Shown in pieces: positions 11,377 through 33,531 of a stretch of 36,380 nucleotides of DNA. The position numbers and the translations under genes are program-made. The stretch is from assembly GCA_019694855.1 (NCBI GenBank), contig JAIBBD010000019.1, positions 1 through 36,380 on the forward strand, written 5' to 3'. Source of the stretch: Dehalococcoidia bacterium. GTDB lineage: Bacteria; Chloroflexota; Dehalococcoidia; UBA2979. Under the pieces are notes generated by a model. The model worked only from the letters and a program-made list of their open reading frames with translations. It was not told the origin of the DNA and searched no databases. The first letter of the stretch is position 1. The number at the start of each line of letters is the position of its first letter.

Positions 11377-12495
11377 ATGACGCCACCCGTCCGAAAGAGA
11401 GCCGGCGCCCAGGCACTCGACCCGACGACTGTCGACGCCCTTCCCGACCAGATCGCGGTCATCGACCGCGATGGCGTGATCGTGTGGGTAAACGAGGCCT
11501 GGACTGACTTCGCCCGTAGCGCCGGCGCTTCCGACGAGGTCTGCCAGGGTGTGGGGACACACTACCTCGACGAGTGCCGCCGGGTGGCGGCCCAGGGGAG
11601 CGCCGAAGCAGCTCAATCCCTGGCCGCCATCGAGTCCGTACTGAACGGTGAACAAGCGCGGGCCTCTGCTCGCTACTCCTGCCGCACATCCGAGTGGCGC
11701 CGGTCGTTCGAGTTGACCGCTTCCGGCCTCGGCCTCGGAAATGGCGCGATCCTCGTGCATCACGACGTGAGCGCTACCGACGACGCCGAGGAGCACGGCG
11801 GGGTTGCCTCGGACGCGGCAGCCGCATCGACGGGCTGGCCCGTCGGGGGCGCAGCGGAGCTGCCGTCGTTCGGACGCCACGACAACGCGCTGCTCGATGC
11901 GATTCCGGACCTGATGTTCGAAGTCGACAGCGACGCGCGGATCCTCAGCTTCCGGCCCGCGCGCGACTTCGACCCGTACCTGCCTCCGGCGGAGTTCCTC
12001 GGACGTCGAGTGACTGATGTCCTGCCCTCCCCGGTCGGCGACCGGCTGGCCGACGCCATCGCCGTGGCGTTCGACACTGGCGTAATTCAGGTCGTCGCAT
12101 ACCAGCTCGAAGTCGCCGACGAAGCGCGTGACTACGAAGCCCGCGTAATTCGCGCGACCGAGTCCGTCGCCTTTGGCATCGTCCGCGACTACACAACGCA
12201 GCGCCGCGAGCAGCTGGAGACTGATCGCCGCCGCGAGGTCGAGGAGCTCGAAGGCCTCGTGGAGCGCCAGCTCCTGCGCCGCAATCCATACCAGCTGACG
12301 TTTCGCGAGTTGACCGTGCTCAACCTCGTCGCGGCTGGCCTCGCCGATAAAGCAATTGCTGAACGCCTCGTGTTAAGCACGTACACGGTGAACAAGCATG
12401 TGGCGCACATTTTGGCCAAAATGGGCGTTCAATCGCGCACCCAGGCGGCAATGCAGGCGCAGCGAGACGGTCTGCTGGCGGTCGATCCGGACTGA
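11377..12495 (+). CDS. PAS-domain LuxR-family transcriptional regulator
   Basis: A 372-residue cytosolic sensor-regulator. The first PAS-like domain spans about 17-130 (LPDQIAVIDRDGVIVWVNEAW...), the second about 167-275 (LDAIPDLMFEVDSDARILSFRP...FGIVRDYTTQRR). A coiled linker (QLETDRRREVEELEGLVERQ) follows, then a GerE/LuxR helix-turn-helix at about 300-360 (LTFRELTVLNLVAAGLADKAIAERLVLSTYTVNKHVAHILAKMGVQSR). No receiver domain or membrane span is seen. The ATG has only a weak ribosome site. It lies 206 bases before the filament operon on the same strand and is the obvious candidate to control it; the ligand is unknown. Confidence 0.87.
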   Translation: MTPPVRKRAGAQALDPTTVDALPDQIAVIDRDGVIVWVNEAWTDFARSAGASDEVCQGVGTHYLDECRRVAAQGSAEAAQSLAAIESVLNGEQARASARYSCRTSEWRRSFELTASGLGLGNGAILVHHDVSATDDAEEHGGVASDAAAASTGWPVGGAAELPSFGRHDNALLDAIPDLMFEVDSDARILSFRPARDFDPYLPPAEFLGRRVTDVLPSPVGDRLADAIAVAFDTGVIQVVAYQLEVADEARDYEARVIRATESVAFGIVRDYTTQRREQLETDRRREVEELEGLVERQLLRRNPYQLTFRELTVLNLVAAGLADKAIAERLVLSTYTVNKHVAHILAKMGVQSRTQAAMQAQRDGLLAVDPD

Positions 12496-12701: not shown

Positions 12702-13505
12702 ATGCGGCGACCGTTCCGGCACGTCGGCGTACTGATGATCGTGGGGATCGCCGCCCTCGGTCTCATCGCCGCGGCCTATACACTGTGGTACGAGGATCTG
12801 AGCCTCACCGCGAACGTCTCGACGGCCCAGTTCGACGTCGACTGGTCATGCCAGACCGGCGTCGGCACAGCGCCTGATGGCGCGGGCACGAACACGACCA
12901 ACAACCAGACGTGTACCGCGGCCACCCGCGACACCGTCGCCATCCTCACCACGGCCGCGACGACGACCAACCCAACGCTGGCCTGGGCGGACTTCACGGA
13001 TCAGGGCGACAGCCCGTCCACGGTGCCCGACACCAAGTACAGCCAGACCTGCTCCAATCCCGTCATCGGTAACAACGCTGCCGGTGCCAACGGCAATACA
13101 GGCAACAACAACACCCTGACGCTGACGATGACTGGTCTGTATCCGTTCGCCGGCTGCAAATTCGCTCTGGATATCGATGTGCCCACCGGCAACTACGTCC
13201 CGGCGCATTTCTCCCTCACGGCTGAGTCAAACAACAGCAATGGCGCCGTCAAAGTGCTCGCACCGACGGCGACCGGAGCCTGCGCTCAAATCGCGGCGGC
13301 ACTGAGTCAGACCTCCGCGACCGTGCCGGCCGTCATTACGGATGGGACAAATCCCATTCAGCTGCATCCCGGCGAGCACCTGTTCTGCACGTTCCTGATC
13401 TACCTGCAGGAACTGAACGCATCGAGCGCGACCGTGGCCGAGAACACCTCGTTCACGATCACCGCGACGATCAAGGCGCACCAGTTCAACGAGCCCGCAC
13501 CTTAG
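12702..13505 (+). CDS. Exported TasA/camelysin-like filament subunit candidate 1
   Basis: A 267-residue secreted protein. The basic start MRRPFRHVG leads to a membrane span (VLMIVGIAALGLIAAA), then YTLWYEDLSLTANVSTAQFDVDWSC. This layout (span, aromatic pair, acidic residue, beta strand of alternating hydrophobics) is that of SipW-cognate proteins such as TasA, CalY and archaeal bundling pilins. The mature part is Thr/Asn/Ala-rich with few charges and five later cysteines, and ends TITATIKAHQFNEPAP, a long final strand. It is the first and longest of the three small subunits and is followed by a strong hairpin, so it could be the major subunit. Fold call is inference from pattern. Confidence 0.7.
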   Translation: MRRPFRHVGVLMIVGIAALGLIAAAYTLWYEDLSLTANVSTAQFDVDWSCQTGVGTAPDGAGTNTTNNQTCTAATRDTVAILTTAATTTNPTLAWADFTDQGDSPSTVPDTKYSQTCSNPVIGNNAAGANGNTGNNNTLTLTMTGLYPFAGCKFALDIDVPTGNYVPAHFSLTAESNNSNGAVKVLAPTATGACAQIAAALSQTSATVPAVITDGTNPIQLHPGEHLFCTFLIYLQELNASSATVAENTSFTITATIKAHQFNEPAP

Positions 13506-13522
13506 CTCGCTCCTCCTGACGT

Positions 13523-13560
13523 GGCGGGGCTGCCGGATGCCGCAATCCGGCGGCCCCGCC
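13523..13560 (+). terminator. 16-bp hairpin inside the filament operon
   Basis: GGCGGGGCTGCCGGAT (13523-13538), loop GCCGCA, ATCCGGCGGCCCCGCC (13545-13560): 16 pairs with one T-G wobble, 17 bases past the first subunit stop and 19 before the next start. No T run follows. It may act as a partial terminator or as a 3' shield that raises mRNA of the first gene over the rest. Confidence 0.7.
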
Positions 13561-13579
13561 TCACTCCTCGGAGCAGTCG

Positions 13580-14179
13580 ATGTATGTGAACCGCCGGATG
13601 CTTGGAGCGCTCATGATTGTGGCGCTCCTCGCCACGGCGCTGCTGGGTGCGGCGGGCACCACCTGGTACGAGGGCCTTACGGCGTCTGCCAGCGTCGCAA
13701 CAACCTCGCTCGACGCGAGCGTCTCCTGCTCCTCACTGAGCGAGACAGACCCCAACAACAACGTTGCGCCGACATCAGCGGCCAACGGCACATACGGCTG
13801 GCAGCTCACCCTGCCCGGCGCGTACGCCGGCTACGCGCTGAGCTGCAACTACACCATAACCAACACCGCACCCGTTGCCTGGCATGTCGAGACGCTCACG
13901 GTCGTGGTCACCGCTCCCGGCGGCGGCACCTCGAGCGCCACCTGCACCCTCGGAGCATCCTGCGCGTACACCGGCACCTACTTCGACCTGAGCATCCCTG
14001 ACACGCGCGGATGCCAGGTGCACCAGTCGCCCGCCACCCCATCGACGCTCACGGGAGCATTCACGATCACCTTCACCGACGCACCAGCCGCCTCCCAGAG
14101 CTGGAGCGTGAAGGTCACGTACCGCGTCCAGCAGTGGAACGAAAGCGTCTACGCCTCCTGCGGAGTGCTGCGCCCGTGA
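13580..14179 (+). CDS. Exported TasA/camelysin-like filament subunit candidate 2
   Basis: A 199-residue protein with the same plan as the first subunit: MYVNRRMLG, a span (ALMIVALLATALLGAAG), then TTWYEGLTASASVATTSLDASVSC, aligning W-Y-E and the following strand with gene 12702. Central motifs YAGYALSCNYTITNT and ATCTLGASCAYTGTYFDL carry cysteines. The end, SWSVKVTYRVQQWNESVYASCGV, again resembles a long terminal strand, with a cysteine near the end. GGAG lies 6 bases before the ATG. The stop overlaps the GTG start of the signal peptidase (GTGA), so translation is coupled. Confidence 0.7.
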   Translation: MYVNRRMLGALMIVALLATALLGAAGTTWYEGLTASASVATTSLDASVSCSSLSETDPNNNVAPTSAANGTYGWQLTLPGAYAGYALSCNYTITNTAPVAWHVETLTVVVTAPGGGTSSATCTLGASCAYTGTYFDLSIPDTRGCQVHQSPATPSTLTGAFTITFTDAPAASQSWSVKVTYRVQQWNESVYASCGVLRP

Positions 14180-15423
14180 GCCAGGCGAGCGTCGACCTGA
14201 GGGCCACGGCTTCCCACCAACCCCGGCCATTCCCGGCCCGAGGCGTGCTCGTGGCTCTGCTGGCCGTGGCAGCGCTGGCTGGCGGGAATGCGTTCGCCTT
14301 CGAGGTGATCCCGGGACAGGTCACAGCGCTGTGGGGCCCGTACGGCCTGGCAGGCGCCGGATGGCTCCTGGCCGCGATGATCGCGCTGGTTGCCGCCCGA
14401 CTGGTCCCGCCGCTGGAACTCGGGCAACAGGCGGATCGCACGCAGGTGCTTCAACTCGCCGCGATCGTCGGCGTGTACCTGGTCGTCGTGCAGCTGCTGG
14501 TGGGGGCTTTCGCCGGGTTCGGCCGCTCCCCATTCGACCACTCCCCAGAATGGCTCGCCATCAACTCGTTCTTCGGGTTCGCGCCGCTTCTGGCCGGCGA
14601 GGCCGCGCGCCTCGCGCTCCTCCGTTCACTCGGCAGCGCGAGCCTCACTCTCGCGCTGCTCGTCGCGAGCGTCCTGGTGGTAATCGCGCGGCTGCCCCTC
14701 GAGAGCTTCGGGGTAAACGGGTTCCCCGCTCAGGCGGAGTTCTGGGGCGGTACGTTCATTCCGCTCACAGCCGTCGGTCTGGTAGCGGGGATCTATGCGC
14801 TCTATGGCGGCCTGCGCGCCAGCCTCCTGGTCACTGCCCCCCTGGTCGCCTTCCACTACCTCTCCCCCGCACTCCCCGGTGGGGATTGGCCTCTGCTCGC
14901 GCTCGCGGGTGTCGCCGGACCGGCCACCGCACTCTGGATGAGCGAGAGTGTGTTCACAGCGGACGAGGCGTCAGCGGTGACCGCCACTCGAGGCGGACCG
15001 TTCGCCAGACTCGGGGCTCCGTCCGTGGGTTGGACCGTCACGGCCGTGATCGCGCTCGCGATCTTCTGGTTCACGTTCGGGTTCTATGGCTTCCAGCCAG
15101 CATTCATCCCCAGCAGCTCCATGTCGCCCTTGCTGAACCGAGGCGACGTCGTGCTCGTCGGGCCGGTCAGCGCCGACAACGTCGAGGTCGGCGACATCGT
15201 GCTCTACGAGCTGGGACCGCACGTCAAGATCCTTCACCGCGTGATCGAAATCCGTCAGACGCCCTCCGGGAGTCGCCAGTTCATCACCAAGGGAGACGCC
15301 AACAACACCGACGACCTGCTCCCCGTCGAAGAACAGCAGCTCCGCGGCGAACTGCTCGGCAGCGTCCCAAAGGTCGGATGGCTCCCGCTGAAGCTGTCCG
15401 AATGGCTGAGAGCGCACCGCTGA
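14176..15423 (+). CDS. Signal peptidase I of SipW/ER type with long multi-span N-terminal domain
   Basis: A 415-residue protein from the GTG that overlaps the previous stop. Residues 1-285 are an unusual membrane domain with about eight hydrophobic stretches. One further span (VGWTVTAVIALAIFWFTFGFYG) leads to the S26 peptidase domain. Catalytic Ser315 is in SSSMSPLLNRGD. The lysine of ordinary bacterial enzymes is replaced by His354 in KILHRVIEI, and Asp374/379/380 lie in TKGDANNTDD: the Ser-His-Asp set of SipW, archaeal and ER signal peptidases. It probably removes the leaders of the four exported neighbours. Usual SipW is about 190 residues, so the N-terminal extension is distinctive. Its stop overlaps the next ATG. 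Confidence 0.88.
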   Translation: MSQASVDLRATASHQPRPFPARGVLVALLAVAALAGGNAFAFEVIPGQVTALWGPYGLAGAGWLLAAMIALVAARLVPPLELGQQADRTQVLQLAAIVGVYLVVVQLLVGAFAGFGRSPFDHSPEWLAINSFFGFAPLLAGEAARLALLRSLGSASLTLALLVASVLVVIARLPLESFGVNGFPAQAEFWGGTFIPLTAVGLVAGIYALYGGLRASLLVTAPLVAFHYLSPALPGGDWPLLALAGVAGPATALWMSESVFTADEASAVTATRGGPFARLGAPSVGWTVTAVIALAIFWFTFGFYGFQPAFIPSSSMSPLLNRGDVVLVGPVSADNVEVGDIVLYELGPHVKILHRVIEIRQTPSGSRQFITKGDANNTDDLLPVEEQQLRGELLGSVPKVGWLPLKLSEWLRAHR

Positions 15424-16097
15424 TGCGACCCCGGCGGCGTCTCCTGCGCCGGTTGTATCCAGTCGCCGCCATCGCCGGACTACTCTTGTTCGCCGTCGTC
15501 GCACTGGCGTACCGGCAGGCGATACGGCCCGTGAGCGCGCTCTGGTCGCAGGACCTGACCATCGACGCGTCAATCTCCGTGGCCGCTCAGAACCAGACGT
15601 TGTACTTGCGCTGCAGCACCGGCGCGACCGCATGCACGGTGAACAACACCACCCCGCCCGCCAGTAACGTACTCGTCGGCACGAATCCCTCACCCAACGG
15701 CGGGAGCGCCTCGTTGGGGAACAACGCGTCCGTCACCCTCAAGTCCGCCAGCCTGACCCGGATCAACAGTCGCAAGAGCTGGACCGTCAACCTCCGCATC
15801 ACTGGCACGGCGGTCACGACCGGGCAGGTTCGACTCTGGTACGTCACCCCAGCGTCATCCGCGTGCGGCACCCCGCCCGCGGCGAGTGCGACAAACTACA
15901 TCGCGGGCGCATCGCTTGCCTCACCCGCATTTCCGGTCGGCACGGTCGTGGTCCCCCTCACCGCTGGTACGGCGACGACGGGGGTCCCCGCGAGCACGGT
16001 CGCCCTGTGCCTGCGCGTTGACCGCGCGGGCGGCGGAGGCAACGTCGTGATCTCCACGACAGGGCTGTCCACCGTGGGCGGACCGTTCACGCCCTGA
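15423..16097 (+). CDS. Exported filament-associated protein 3 (short TasA-like plan)
   Basis: A 224-residue protein that starts at an ATG sharing its first A with the peptidase stop. MRPRRRLLRRLYP is strongly basic, followed by the span VAAIAGLLLFAVVALAY and then PVSALWSQDLTIDASISVAAQN. The W-x-(Q/E)-D-L and the ensuing strand align with the first two subunits. The mature part is Ser/Thr/Asn-rich (ASLGNNASVTLKSASLTRIN) with four cysteines and many predicted beta strands. The role is likely minor subunit or tip/base adaptor. It is recognised only by its N-terminal pattern and operon position. Its stop overlaps the start of the next gene. Confidence 0.65.
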   Translation: MRPRRRLLRRLYPVAAIAGLLLFAVVALAYRQAIRPVSALWSQDLTIDASISVAAQNQTLYLRCSTGATACTVNNTTPPASNVLVGTNPSPNGGSASLGNNASVTLKSASLTRINSRKSWTVNLRITGTAVTTGQVRLWYVTPASSACGTPPAASATNYIAGASLASPAFPVGTVVVPLTAGTATTGVPASTVALCLRVDRAGGGGNVVISTTGLSTVGGPFTP

Positions 16098-17023
16098 TGC
16101 CAGCCGACGTTGCTCGGCGGGGGCTCGTTGCGTTCGTACTCACCGCGATCGGCATCCTGGCCGCGCTCCTGGCAGGCTCTCGAGGCTCCTCGGCGCTGGG
16201 CCTGCAGGCGACGTGGAGCATCTCGGGGCGCCTTGACGCGTCCGCGTTCCGAGCGGGCAGTCAGCTCGCTGCCGGCGGCCAGGGTTTCGAGGTCATCTCC
16301 TTCGGCGCCGCCGGCCCGACCGCCGCGCTGAGCACGTACCGCTACGGCGGCCCGGATCTCGCTCCCATACCCCAGCGCCGCTTCGTCACGTGCGCGGCCA
16401 GCGCCTCCGCAGGACGACTCACCCTTAACATAGGCAACGCGTTCCCGTACGCGGGCTGTGTCTTCTTCCCAACCGTCACAAACACGGGCACCAGCGCCAT
16501 CGAGGTCGACCTCGGGTCGCTCCAGCAACCCGCTGGCGTGTTCTGCGGCCGTTCGACGTGCAAAGTGGACATCGTCGCCGGCGGGACCGACGAGGCCGGC
16601 GTCGCCGACCGCTGTATATCTACCGGATCGGTCGCCCGCGCAAGCACGTCCCTGCTGACATATCGTCTCGCATCAGGAGCATCGATGACCTGCCCCGTCT
16701 TCGTGGTGTTGCTGCAGCCCGCCTCGGAGGCGACGACCTACGCCGTCACGGTCGATGCGCCCCGGCCGCAGGCGCCCGCACCGACAACGTACATAGATGT
16801 GGGCCCGGCGCCGCCGCTGGTTCCCGGGGCAGCCGCCACCCCACGACCGCCACGTACGGGCTTTGGCCTCGTCGTCGGCCCCGCCGAGACCCAACCAGGC
16901 GACGGCACCGCGATCCTCGCCGTGGTGAGCTTCCTCGCGCTCCTCGGAGCCGTGCTCATCTTCAGCCTCCCGAAGCGGCGGCGAGACGAAGACCCGGCAG
17001 AGCTGGCGTCGGGCGAAGCGTAG
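16097..17023 (+). CDS. Membrane-anchored exported protein, possible filament base (PPRTG-like tail)
   Basis: A 308-residue protein, ATG overlapping the previous stop. It has an N-terminal span (GLVAFVLTAIGILAALLAG), then LGLQATWSISGRLDASAFRAG, which keeps the Trp and strand of the other subunits. A Thr/Ser/Ala-rich ectodomain with six cysteines follows. Residues 240-308 hold a proline-rich linker, RPPRTGFG, a membrane span (AILAVVSFLALLGAVLIFSL) and the basic stop-transfer PKRRRDED. RTG before a span and basic tail recalls an LPxTG sorting signal, though the leucine is absent and the gap to the span is long. It could anchor the fibre in the membrane. No sortase gene is in the window. Confidence 0.65.
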   Translation: MPADVARRGLVAFVLTAIGILAALLAGSRGSSALGLQATWSISGRLDASAFRAGSQLAAGGQGFEVISFGAAGPTAALSTYRYGGPDLAPIPQRRFVTCAASASAGRLTLNIGNAFPYAGCVFFPTVTNTGTSAIEVDLGSLQQPAGVFCGRSTCKVDIVAGGTDEAGVADRCISTGSVARASTSLLTYRLASGASMTCPVFVVLLQPASEATTYAVTVDAPRPQAPAPTTYIDVGPAPPLVPGAAATPRPPRTGFGLVVGPAETQPGDGTAILAVVSFLALLGAVLIFSLPKRRRDEDPAELASGEA

Positions 17024-17041: not shown

Positions 17042-17117
17042 TGGAGCGGGGGACGGGTCTCGAACCCGCGACATCCTGCTTGGAAGGCAGGTGCTCTACC
17101 AACTGAGCTACCCCCGC
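17042..17117 (-). tRNA. tRNA-Gly (anticodon TCC)
   Basis: On the minus strand a 76-base cloverleaf with encoded CCA. Acceptor GCGGGGG/CCCCCGC; D arm GCTCAGTTGGTAGAGC; anticodon arm CCTGC-CTTCCAA-GCAGG with TCC at the centre (reads GGA); T arm CGGGTTCGAGACCCG; discriminator T. It lies opposite in sense to the flanking genes, just past the filament operon stop. Confidence 0.95.
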
Positions 17118-24733: not shown

Positions 24734-25579
24734 ATGGTCCGACTGCAGTGGTGGAGACAACGACCGGCGTTCATCGCGGCCGTCGCGGCCGTGGCCCTGT
24801 CGCTCGTCGTCATTGGGGGGGCGCGCTACGCCAGCAGTGCGCCGGCGCCGACAAGCACCGCAGCCTGCTGGAACAAGTTCACCGGCCTCGTGCGCGTGTT
24901 GAAGCCGAACCAGGCGTGTCTCTCGCTGTACGAGAATCCGATTGACCTGGGCGCCGGCTCCGGAGCCAGCGGGCCCGTCGGCCCGACCGGTCCCACCGGC
25001 CCGACGGGCGCGACCGGCCCCGCCGGGCAGCTCATCGGCGCGATTGAGTTCACTTCAACCGGGACCTTCTCAGTACCCGCCGGCGTCTCACGCGTGATGG
25101 TCGAAGCGATCGGCGGTGGCGGAGGTGGAGGCGCCAGCAACTCCGTCAACGAGTCCGGAGGCGGCGGGGGCGGAGGCTATGTCCGCGCCGTAGTCACTGT
25201 GCCGCCCGGTGCGACATGCACGGTGACCGTCGGCAACGGTGGCGGCGGTGGACAGACGGGCGTCTGGAACGGCGGCACCGGGGGCAATTCCACACTCGAC
25301 TGCGGCTCCGGCGCCCTCATCACCGCTGTGGGCGGGACCGGCGGCAGCGACAACGCAGGCCCCGGGGGTGCAGGAGGTGGCGGCATCCTTCCCTCGAGCC
25401 CCGCTGGCCAGGGCGTCCTTCGAGCGGGGACAGCGGGGGCCGGCGGCCCCACGCACGCCGGAGGCGTCGCGACGCGCGGTTCGCTGGCCATCGACGCTGG
25501 CGACGGCGGCGCGGGCGGCATTGGCTCGCTTGTGAACGGCACCGCTGGCCTGTCCGGCTGGGTGCTCATTCAGTGGTAG
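24734..25579 (+). CDS. Secreted protein: Cys head, short collagen stretch, glycine-rich domain (paralogue a)
   Basis: A 281-residue exported protein. Leader RLQWWRQRPAFIAAVAAVALSLVVIGG, then a head with STAACWNKFTGLVRVLKPNQACLSLYENPIDLGAG (two cysteines). Seven or eight Gly-X-Y triplets ([19 protein letters not shown]) follow, and then a glycine-rich domain starting IEFTSTGTFSVPAGVSRVMVEAIGGGGGGG and ending AGLSGWVLIQW. That domain is seen in many secreted and phage-tail proteins and is not enzymatic. AAGGA precedes the ATG. It forms a tandem with the next gene, 10 bases away, and the two are alike from head to tail. Confidence 0.8.
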   Translation: MVRLQWWRQRPAFIAAVAAVALSLVVIGGARYASSAPAPTSTAACWNKFTGLVRVLKPNQACLSLYENPIDLGAGSGASGPVGPTGPTGPTGATGPAGQLIGAIEFTSTGTFSVPAGVSRVMVEAIGGGGGGGASNSVNESGGGGGGGYVRAVVTVPPGATCTVTVGNGGGGGQTGVWNGGTGGNSTLDCGSGALITAVGGTGGSDNAGPGGAGGGGILPSSPAGQGVLRAGTAGAGGPTHAGGVATRGSLAIDAGDGGAGGIGSLVNGTAGLSGWVLIQW

Positions 25580-25589
25580 GGGACAGGCC

Positions 25590-26465
25590 GTGAACACTGG
25601 CCACGCGGGTTCCCGAACGCTGGACCGCAGGAGACCGCTGTCCTGGCTCGTCGTGACGACGGCCGCCATCGCGATCGCCGCGCTCTTGCTCAGTCGTGCG
25701 ACCTTCGTGCATGGCGCTCCGGCCTCGAGCACCGCGGCTTGCTGGAACCGGGCGACCGGCCTCGTCCGAGTCCTGAAACCCCACGAATCGTGCCTCCCGC
25801 TGTATGAGAATCCTATCGACCTCGGGGCGGGCGCAGGGCCGTCAGGCCCCGTCGGCGCAACCGGCACCGCCGGTGCGACGGGCACCGCCGGTGCCGCACA
25901 GCTCAATGGGGTGCGTGAGTACACCGCGAGCGACACGTTCACCGTCCCCACAGGCGTCACCCGCATCCTCGTCGAGGCGATCGGGGCCGGGGGTGGCGGG
26001 GCGACGAGGCACACGCTCTATGGCGGTGGCGGCGGAGGTGCGGGCGGGTACGTTCGCGCCGTGATGACCGTGGCTTCTGGTGCGGTCTGCACCATCACAG
26101 TCGGCACGGGCGGCGATCGAGGCACCGATGACATGGACGATCCGAACGGCAAGGCTGGCATGCCTTCCTCCGTCGACTGCGGCGGCGGCGCCATCGTCAC
26201 GGCGCTTGGCGGTGACGGCGGCAATACCGGCGCTGCGGCCTCCGGCGGCAGCGGGGTCCTGCCACCGGCTCCGAGCGCTCAGGGACTCGTCCGCGCGGGC
26301 GGGAGCGGCACAGCACTCATCCCGCACCTGAACGGCGTCGGTGGGGTCGCGACCCGTGGCTCGCTGAGGATCGCGGCCGGAGATGGCGGTGATGGCAGCC
26401 CGAACGACCCCTACAACGTCTTCGGCGAACCTGGCCTCCCGGGCTGGGTGCTGATCCAGTGGTAG
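25590..26465 (+). CDS. Secreted protein: Cys head, short collagen stretch, glycine-rich domain (paralogue b)
   Basis: A 291-residue tandem copy. The leader is SRTLDRRRPLSWLVVTTAAIAIAALLL and the head is STAACWNRATGLVRVLKPHESCLPLYENPIDLGAGAG. The collagen part has shrunk to GPSGPVGATGTAGATGTAGA, and the glycine-rich domain begins VREYTASDTFTVPTGVTRILVEAIGAGGGG and ends GLPGWVLIQW. The GTG start has AGGGGA seven bases before it. Shared head and end with diverged middles argue for duplication followed by loss of collagen triplets. Probably the same transcript as the 24734 gene. No clear terminator follows, only a GCCTGAC/GTCAGGC pair 25 bases apart. Confidence 0.8.
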   Translation: MNTGHAGSRTLDRRRPLSWLVVTTAAIAIAALLLSRATFVHGAPASSTAACWNRATGLVRVLKPHESCLPLYENPIDLGAGAGPSGPVGATGTAGATGTAGAAQLNGVREYTASDTFTVPTGVTRILVEAIGAGGGGATRHTLYGGGGGGAGGYVRAVMTVASGAVCTITVGTGGDRGTDDMDDPNGKAGMPSSVDCGGGAIVTALGGDGGNTGAAASGGSGVLPPAPSAQGLVRAGGSGTALIPHLNGVGGVATRGSLRIAAGDGGDGSPNDPYNVFGEPGLPGWVLIQW

Positions 26466-27141: not shown

Positions 27142-27966
<825 letters not shown>

Positions 27967-32580: not shown

Positions 32581-33531
32581 ATGGCAGAGAAGCGGTTCCC
32601 GACAAGCCTTCTTGAAGCGGTGCGGTACTTCGAGGACCCGGACGTGTGCCGGGACTTCGTCGTGTCCCTCCGGTGGCCGAATGGTGTCACCTGCCCGCGC
32701 GAGGGTTGCGGTTCTGACCGCGTAGCGTTCGTCGAGTCCCGCAAGATTTGGCGCTGCAACGGCTGTCGGAAGCAGTTCAGCGTGAAGGTTGGGACGATCT
32801 TCGAGGACTCGCCTATCGGCCTCGAGAAGTGGCTTCCCGCGATCTGGATGCTCACTTCCGCGAAGCAGGGCGTGTCGTCCTACCAGTTGTCCCGCGCCCT
32901 CGGCATCACTCAGAAGTCGGCATGGCACATGGAGCACCGCATCCGCGTCGCCATGCGTACCGAGTCCTTCAACAAGCCGCTCGATGGTGAAGTAGAGGCG
33001 GACGAGTCCTTCTTCGGCGGCAAGGCGAAGAACATGCACTACTACAAGAAGCTGGAGCGCACCAAGGGCGGGCGCGGGGCGGCTGGCAAGGCTATCGTGA
33101 TGGGCGTTCTGCAGCGGGGTGGCGACGTTCGCGCCAACACGATCCCCGACACCCGCAGGCGGACGCTCCAGTCCGAGGTCCGGAAGCACGTCGCTCCGGG
33201 CAGCGCCGTCTACACGGACGCGCTGCCGTCATACCGGGGCCTCTCAGATGACTACCTTCACGAGTTCGTGGATCACACCTACGAGTACGTGAACGGGCGG
33301 GTGAGCACGAACAGCCTCGAAGGGTTCTGGTCGCTCGTTAAGCGGTCAGTGGACGGCACCTACCATTCCGTGGAGCCGGTACACTTGGATCGTTACCTCG
33401 ATGAGTTCACGCGGCGGTTCAACACGCGGAAGCTCTCGGACGCCCAGCGGTTCGTTCTGACCGTCTCCTCCGCCATCGGGCGGCGGCTGACCTACAAGGA
33501 GCTGATTGGCCAGGCAAGCACGGCCCCCTGA
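32581..33531 (+). CDS. IS1595-family (ISXO2-like) transposase
   Basis: A 316-residue DDE transposase, apparently intact. It has an N-terminal zinc ribbon C38-x4-C43...C59-x2-C62, then a helix-turn-helix (KQGVSSYQLSRALGITQKSAWHMEHRIR, 95-122). The catalytic core has Asp141 in VEADESFFGGK, Asp213 in VYTDALPSY, and N244/E247 in TNSLEGFWSLVKR. The tail is HLDRYLDEFTRRFNTRK. It cuts and joins the element ends through the 28-base repeats. Its mRNA is probably leaderless. The last 26 bases overlap the next small ORF. The length and the key residues suit activity. Confidence 0.95.
   Translation: MAEKRFPTSLLEAVRYFEDPDVCRDFVVSLRWPNGVTCPREGCGSDRVAFVESRKIWRCNGCRKQFSVKVGTIFEDSPIGLEKWLPAIWMLTSAKQGVSSYQLSRALGITQKSAWHMEHRIRVAMRTESFNKPLDGEVEADESFFGGKAKNMHYYKKLERTKGGRGAAGKAIVMGVLQRGGDVRANTIPDTRRRTLQSEVRKHVAPGSAVYTDALPSYRGLSDDYLHEFVDHTYEYVNGRVSTNSLEGFWSLVKRSVDGTYHSVEPVHLDRYLDEFTRRFNTRKLSDAQRFVLTVSSAIGRRLTYKELIGQASTAP

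Follow-up and report, generated by a model that had tools for sequence, protein, structure and literature searches.

Among the closest known systems to the one analyzed here are the TasA fibers of Bacillus subtilis, encoded by tapA-sipW-tasA, and the archaeal bundling pilin AbpX (PDB: 9sj2, 9rhp), named as ABPx of Pyrodictium abyssi in PMC11952670. In TasA, the N-terminal strand (residues 28–38) reaches into the next subunit, and its truncation leads to defective fibers (PMC9674648); the proline box (P62) is the most conserved contact between protomers (PMC10151520). The sipW-bsaABCRSD operon of C. perfringens pairs a single SipW with four secreted proteins (PMC7395162), and the sipW-tasA-bc1280-calY operon of B. 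cereus lacks tapA (PMC4292775, PMC13082335). Filaments have been demonstrated experimentally for both of these systems (PMC7395162, PMC4292775, PMC13082335).

The window, that is, the whole analyzed stretch of 36,380 nucleotides from an uncultured Dehalococcoidia bacterium, contains an operon of five genes at positions 12702–17023, all on the (+) strand, as the sequence-only reading had stated. Gene 1 (12702..13505, 267 aa) encodes pilin 1, probably the main subunit class, and gene 2 (13580..14179, 199 aa) encodes pilin 2, a separate subunit class. Gene 3 (14176..15423, 415 aa, GTG start) encodes a fused SipW/SEC11-type peptidase, and gene 4 (15423..16097, 224 aa, with an in-frame ATG at 15402 as an alternative start) an exported protein with a donor-strand N-terminus and a non-pilin core. 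The product of gene 5 (16097..17023, 308 aa), a pilin core followed by a C-terminal surface-anchor signal, is the proposed anchor subunit. A gap of 74 bases separates genes 1 and 2, and the short overlaps claimed among genes 2–5 were confirmed (4 bases between genes 2 and 3, 1 between 3 and 4, and 1 between 4 and 5).

A gene for a PAS and LuxR-type regulator (11377..12495, (+) strand; Pfam PAS_4, 1.7e-13; GerE, 1.9e-16) lies upstream and is a possible regulator of the operon; response regulators also adjoin other clusters. A search for a promoter-like site found none. Downstream are tRNA-Gly (17042–17117) and a gene for an unrelated multi-pass protein. Insertion of the operon as an island at tRNA-Gly is not indicated, because no second copy of the 3′ part of the tRNA was found and the GC content is ordinary. 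Elsewhere, the window encodes an exported protein with collagen-like repeats (27190–27966; PF01391, 2.5e-21), two adjoining exported proteins, each with a Gly_rich_2 domain (24791–25579 and 25653–26465), and an IS1595-type transposase (32620–33531) within a region of lower GC content (about 31–35 kb).

The relationship of the exported proteins to known pilins emerged from profile comparisons. Single-protein Pfam and NCBIfam searches with genes 1, 2, 4 and 5 matched no TasA or SipW-cognate family and returned nothing useful, and gene 1 as a single-sequence query of the PDB gave no match; only profiles were effective. With profiles that contained no window sequences, gene 1 was recovered at E = 6.9e-12 and gene 2 at E = 1.4e-7 (Z = 1000; shuffles of gene 1 scored at most 5.7 bits), and both were still detected after removal of the leader and strand (core alone, 2.7e-6 and 3.7e-5, respectively). 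The core of gene 5 scored 38 bits with a profile of pilins from close relatives, compared with at most 0.8 in 500 shuffles. When the whole genome of the window was scanned with the pilin profile, genes 1, 2 and 5 (the last at E = 8.5e-8) were matched and nothing else. In the tree, gene 1 clusters with its G155 and G347 copies (support 97/93), gene 2 with the G347 copy (99/96), and gene 5 with its orthologues (100/100). By this sequence-based classification, the gene 1, gene 2 and gene 5 types are three subunit classes common to several genomes. The gene 1 class has two copies in G155, and gene 2 is distinguished by a conserved Cys and a C-terminal QWNES motif.

The profile of the 21-member pilin family matches AbpX (9sj2, 1.5e-14; 9rhp, 6.6e-10), and a profile limited to the nine closest relatives still finds AbpX at 2e-9. 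The family shares with AbpX a W-x3-L-x-L donor strand ending in STG and a core with YPG and GTVP motifs. TasA was matched weakly by the family profile (E about 1 (0.9)), which counts against the filament reading. In the profile alignment, LKPG and QWN of TasA lie opposite YPG and QWN of the family, and the nearly invariant P148 of the family corresponds to P62 of the TasA proline box. The single-sequence AF2 model of gene 2, usable for secondary structure only, is β-rich (pLDDT 68, pTM 0.67) and, when compared with the PDB, resembles generic β-sandwich modules (TM ≤0.35) and neither TasA nor AbpX.

The sequence-only reading attributed a shared TasA-like N-terminus to all four exported proteins, and this held for three of them. 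Using a donor-strand PSSM trained on other genomes only, with p values from shuffles, we predicted strands in gene 1 (residues 28–45, LWYEDLSLTANVSTAQFD; 12783..12836, (+); score 28.4, p = 5e-5), gene 2 (residues 28–45; 13661..13714, (+); 17.0, p = 3e-4) and gene 4 (residues 40–57, LWSQDLTIDASISVAAQN; 15540..15593, (+); 16.1, p = 2e-4), whereas strandless genes in 10 stretches scored 10.4 or less. Gene 5 does not share the motif: its best score was −2.0 (p = 0.09), and the score at its Trp was about −9.5. In the profile match, the N-terminal strand of genes 1 and 2 aligns with AbpX WSETLSLSATISTG, and that of gene 1 also with AbpX WSETLSLSATISTGSLD. In 9rhp, the strand WSETLSLSATISTG sits at the C-terminus of the chain, which we read as a self-complemented construct. 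The strand of the pilin family occupies the position that matches the TasA N-terminal strand.

Gene 4 combines this strand with a core that has no homology to the pilin profile (−0.8 bits). Its counterparts in G155 and G347 occupy an equal position and carry the N-terminal motif, with cores that cannot be aligned; the likeness is thus limited to the N-terminus, which counts against the filament reading. The single-sequence model of gene 4 has a pLDDT of 42.5. Neither gene 4 nor gene 5 has a family match to TapA among the Pfam and NCBIfam models. We propose gene 4 as a functional stand-in for TapA, which would serve as an initiator or cap.

The peptidase encoded by gene 3 has the SipW/ER-type identity assigned to it earlier: its catalytic domain (15031..15423, (+)) matches TIGR02228 at 6e-21, above the cut-off, and human SEC11C in the PDB at 5e-10. 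The S26B-type residues Ser315, His354 and Asp374, which replace the Ser/Lys pair, are at exactly the positions originally given and are invariant in 10 of 10 homologues. The match to the Bacillus SipW equivalog NF046067 (40.4 bits) is below its cut-off of 190; judged by these model scores, gene 3 shares a superfamily with Bacillus SipW but is not the Bacillus equivalog. An N-terminal multi-pass membrane domain of about 280 aa (14176..15030, (+)) is fused to the peptidase. No Pfam model matches this domain, in which the homologue alignment reveals conserved P119, E142, R145, P231 and W238. A search with this domain alone detected it in 12 of the 393 class genomes, with identity of up to 47%, and in 8 of 400 genomes across the phylum; at least one phylum genome outside the class (G485) encodes the fused domain with an adjoining pilin. 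A plasmid search yielded relatives of the catalytic domain only, and the search of viral contigs yielded no relatives. We consider it possible, albeit doubtful, that the multi-pass domain is an assembly platform that would hold freshly cut pilins and couple cleavage to donor-strand polymerization, the filament then being fixed by a sortase acting on the acceptor-only pilin. If true, the system would amount to a donor-strand pilus that has an assembly center of its own in the inner membrane and a base anchored by a sortase.

The gene order in relatives was compared as well. It is conserved in G155 and G347, which belong to another family and encode, on one strand, pilin 1 (two copies in G155), pilin 2, the fused peptidase, a gene 4-like protein and gene 5. 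It is partly conserved in G124, where pilin 1, pilin 2 and the fused peptidase are followed by a single protein in which a donor-strand N-terminus precedes Pro/Thr-rich spacers and an LPKTG tail. Clusters that are more distant, such as those of G280, G180, G169, G188, G326 and G218, contain several pilins and the fused peptidase. At six loci among these distant clusters, a large membrane protein follows the peptidase. In the three clusters tested, this protein is DUF5305 (PF17231, down to 4.8e-31), which is absent from the window-type cluster and may serve for anchoring or assembly in the distant ones.

Searched separately, the pilin profile matched 16 of the 393 class genomes. Every genome with the fused peptidase (12) is among them, and in these 12 the two are mostly adjacent; the chance of such an overlap (12 in 16) is ~1e-19 by simple counting over 393 genomes, a figure that ignores relatedness. 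Among the sampled genomes of the window's own family, neither the fused domain nor the pilins occur outside the window's genome, which counts against the filament reading and indicates a patchy distribution of the operon due to transfer or loss. Another genome of this family encodes a different SipW-type peptidase beside a TasA-like protein (FAAWTASDTATGTVTAATVSIDVFG); hence, the family has other SipW systems.

The C-terminus of gene 5 carries a sortase-type signal (16847..16969, (+)) composed of PPRTG (residues 251–255), a 15-aa spacer, a membrane span (271–291) and KRRR, beyond which there is a short tail. The counterpart position is PPITG in G155, PPVTG in G347 and LPKTG in G124. Gene 5 thus conforms to the pattern of sortase substrates ([LP]PxTG, membrane span, basic tail and a sortase in the genome), and its cleavage is predicted. 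The PPxTG motif lies 13–15 aa ahead of the span, a longer spacing than that of textbook LPxTG signals, which counts against this part of the filament reading. The genome of the window encodes four sortases, three of which adjoin proteins with a tail of the gene 5 type. On contigs C56, C29 and C18, sortase genes are located beside proteins ending in an LPNTG or PPKTG motif (LPNTG, PPKTG, PPKTG), then a spacer, then a membrane span and finally a basic tail. This suggests a long-spacer style of sorting signal specific to the window's genome. The clusters of G180 and G280 contain no such anchor, and no sortase was detected in either genome. Six Bacillota SipW-like loci also have sorting-type tails nearby, so that the link between SipW and sortase signals may be wider. 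Among the proposed major, minor and anchor roles, that of gene 5 as the putative anchor is the best founded.

Taken together, homology, catalytic residues, conserved order, the strand motif, subunit classes, the sorting-type signal and the sortases in the genome argue that the operon very probably encodes a surface filament of the TasA/archaeal-bundling-pilin type assembled by donor-strand exchange, with pilins 1 and 2 as its main subunits, gene 4 as a donor-only initiator or cap, and gene 5 as an anchor with a sortase signal. The earlier proposal of a dedicated filament system with differentiated subunits is therefore upheld by the AbpX profile match, the conserved order and the distinct clades. 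What we infer from these features is the cleavage site, strand exchange, the link to sortase and the parts played by genes 4 and 5. In the proposed mechanism, the products of genes 1, 2 and 4 would be exported via Sec and cut by gene 3 just ahead of the W-x3-L strand. Once freed, the strand of each pilin would insert into the groove of the following one, so that the products of genes 1 and 2 would polymerize into a filament; gene 4, in the manner of TapA or a cap, would supply the strand at its start or end. Gene 5 would accept a strand and tie the filament to the envelope through its membrane span or a housekeeping sortase.

The exported proteins might instead be SipW-processed adhesins or binding proteins that have a signal peptide and an Ig-like fold in common and do not polymerize. 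SipW-type signal peptides are indeed a recognized class, matched weakly by TIGR04088 in 5 of the 21 family members, and such folds are frequent among binding modules. We nonetheless regard this explanation as unlikely, given that the AbpX match extends past the leader into the core, that the interface proline is conserved, and that the core-only homology of genes 1, 2 and 5 together with the three conserved subunit classes resembles assembly. Polymerization could also be of the sortase type, with a sortase joining the subunits covalently and SipW only trimming signal peptides, as might be suspected from the PPRTG-span-RRR arrangement of gene 5 and the four sortases. This seems highly improbable: genes 1, 2 and 4 possess no C-terminal sorting signal or span, the cluster contains no sortase gene, G180 and G280 carry clusters in genomes where no sortase was detected, and BsaA polymerizes without the neighboring sortase (PMC7395162). 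That gene 3 is a housekeeping type I signal peptidase with incidental neighbors is hardly credible, because the fused form was found in few genomes (12/393), all of which also encode the pilins. In its favor, the window's genome contains a fragment of one further SipW-type peptidase gene (C47:1–425), which is short and truncated at the contig end, with its neighbors missing on that side.

As a donor-strand filament system, the operon resembles that of B. subtilis in its dedicated SipW-type peptidase and in its TasA-like pilins with an N-terminal donor strand, a proline box and a QWN end. It differs in that family models recognize no TapA, a multi-pass domain is joined to the peptidase, there are two pilins, and the anchor carries a sorting-type signal. 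Compared with archaeal AbpX, which was examined through its PDB chains, the window system is bacterial, and its single operon encodes an anchor protein and a strand-only protein in addition to two classes of pilin. The operons of C. perfringens and B. cereus likewise comprise one SipW and several secreted proteins without tapA, and these precedents overturn the suggestion that such a make-up had not been described. They differ from the window operon in that they belong to Bacillota, a fused multi-pass domain is not mentioned, and polymerization is described as sortase-independent. The Sulfolobus threads (Saci_0406/0405) are a donor-strand filament with a strand-only cap candidate comparable to gene 4 (PMC9715654), but are reported to be an independent lineage, and Saci_0405 has no Sec signal. 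As far as we found, what is new is the fused membrane domain, the split between a strand-only protein and a strandless anchor, and the location in Chloroflexota.

Direct sequence homology ties this Chloroflexota system to archaeal bundling pili. The operon holds the probable answer to how TasA-like filaments are initiated, grow and are retained on the cell. Its five genes supply a peptidase extended by a conserved membrane domain, pilins of two classes, a protein that has the strand only, and a pilin that lacks the strand but can be anchored. The class includes complete genomes of 1.4–1.9 Mb. Among these, reductive-dehalogenase matches number 27 in G047 and 29 in G180, which is indicative of Dehalococcoidia; there are none in the window's genome. 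A related cluster is present in a complete 1.8-Mb genome with many reductive dehalogenase genes, presumably Dehalogenimonas-like, so that a cultivated relative may be testable.
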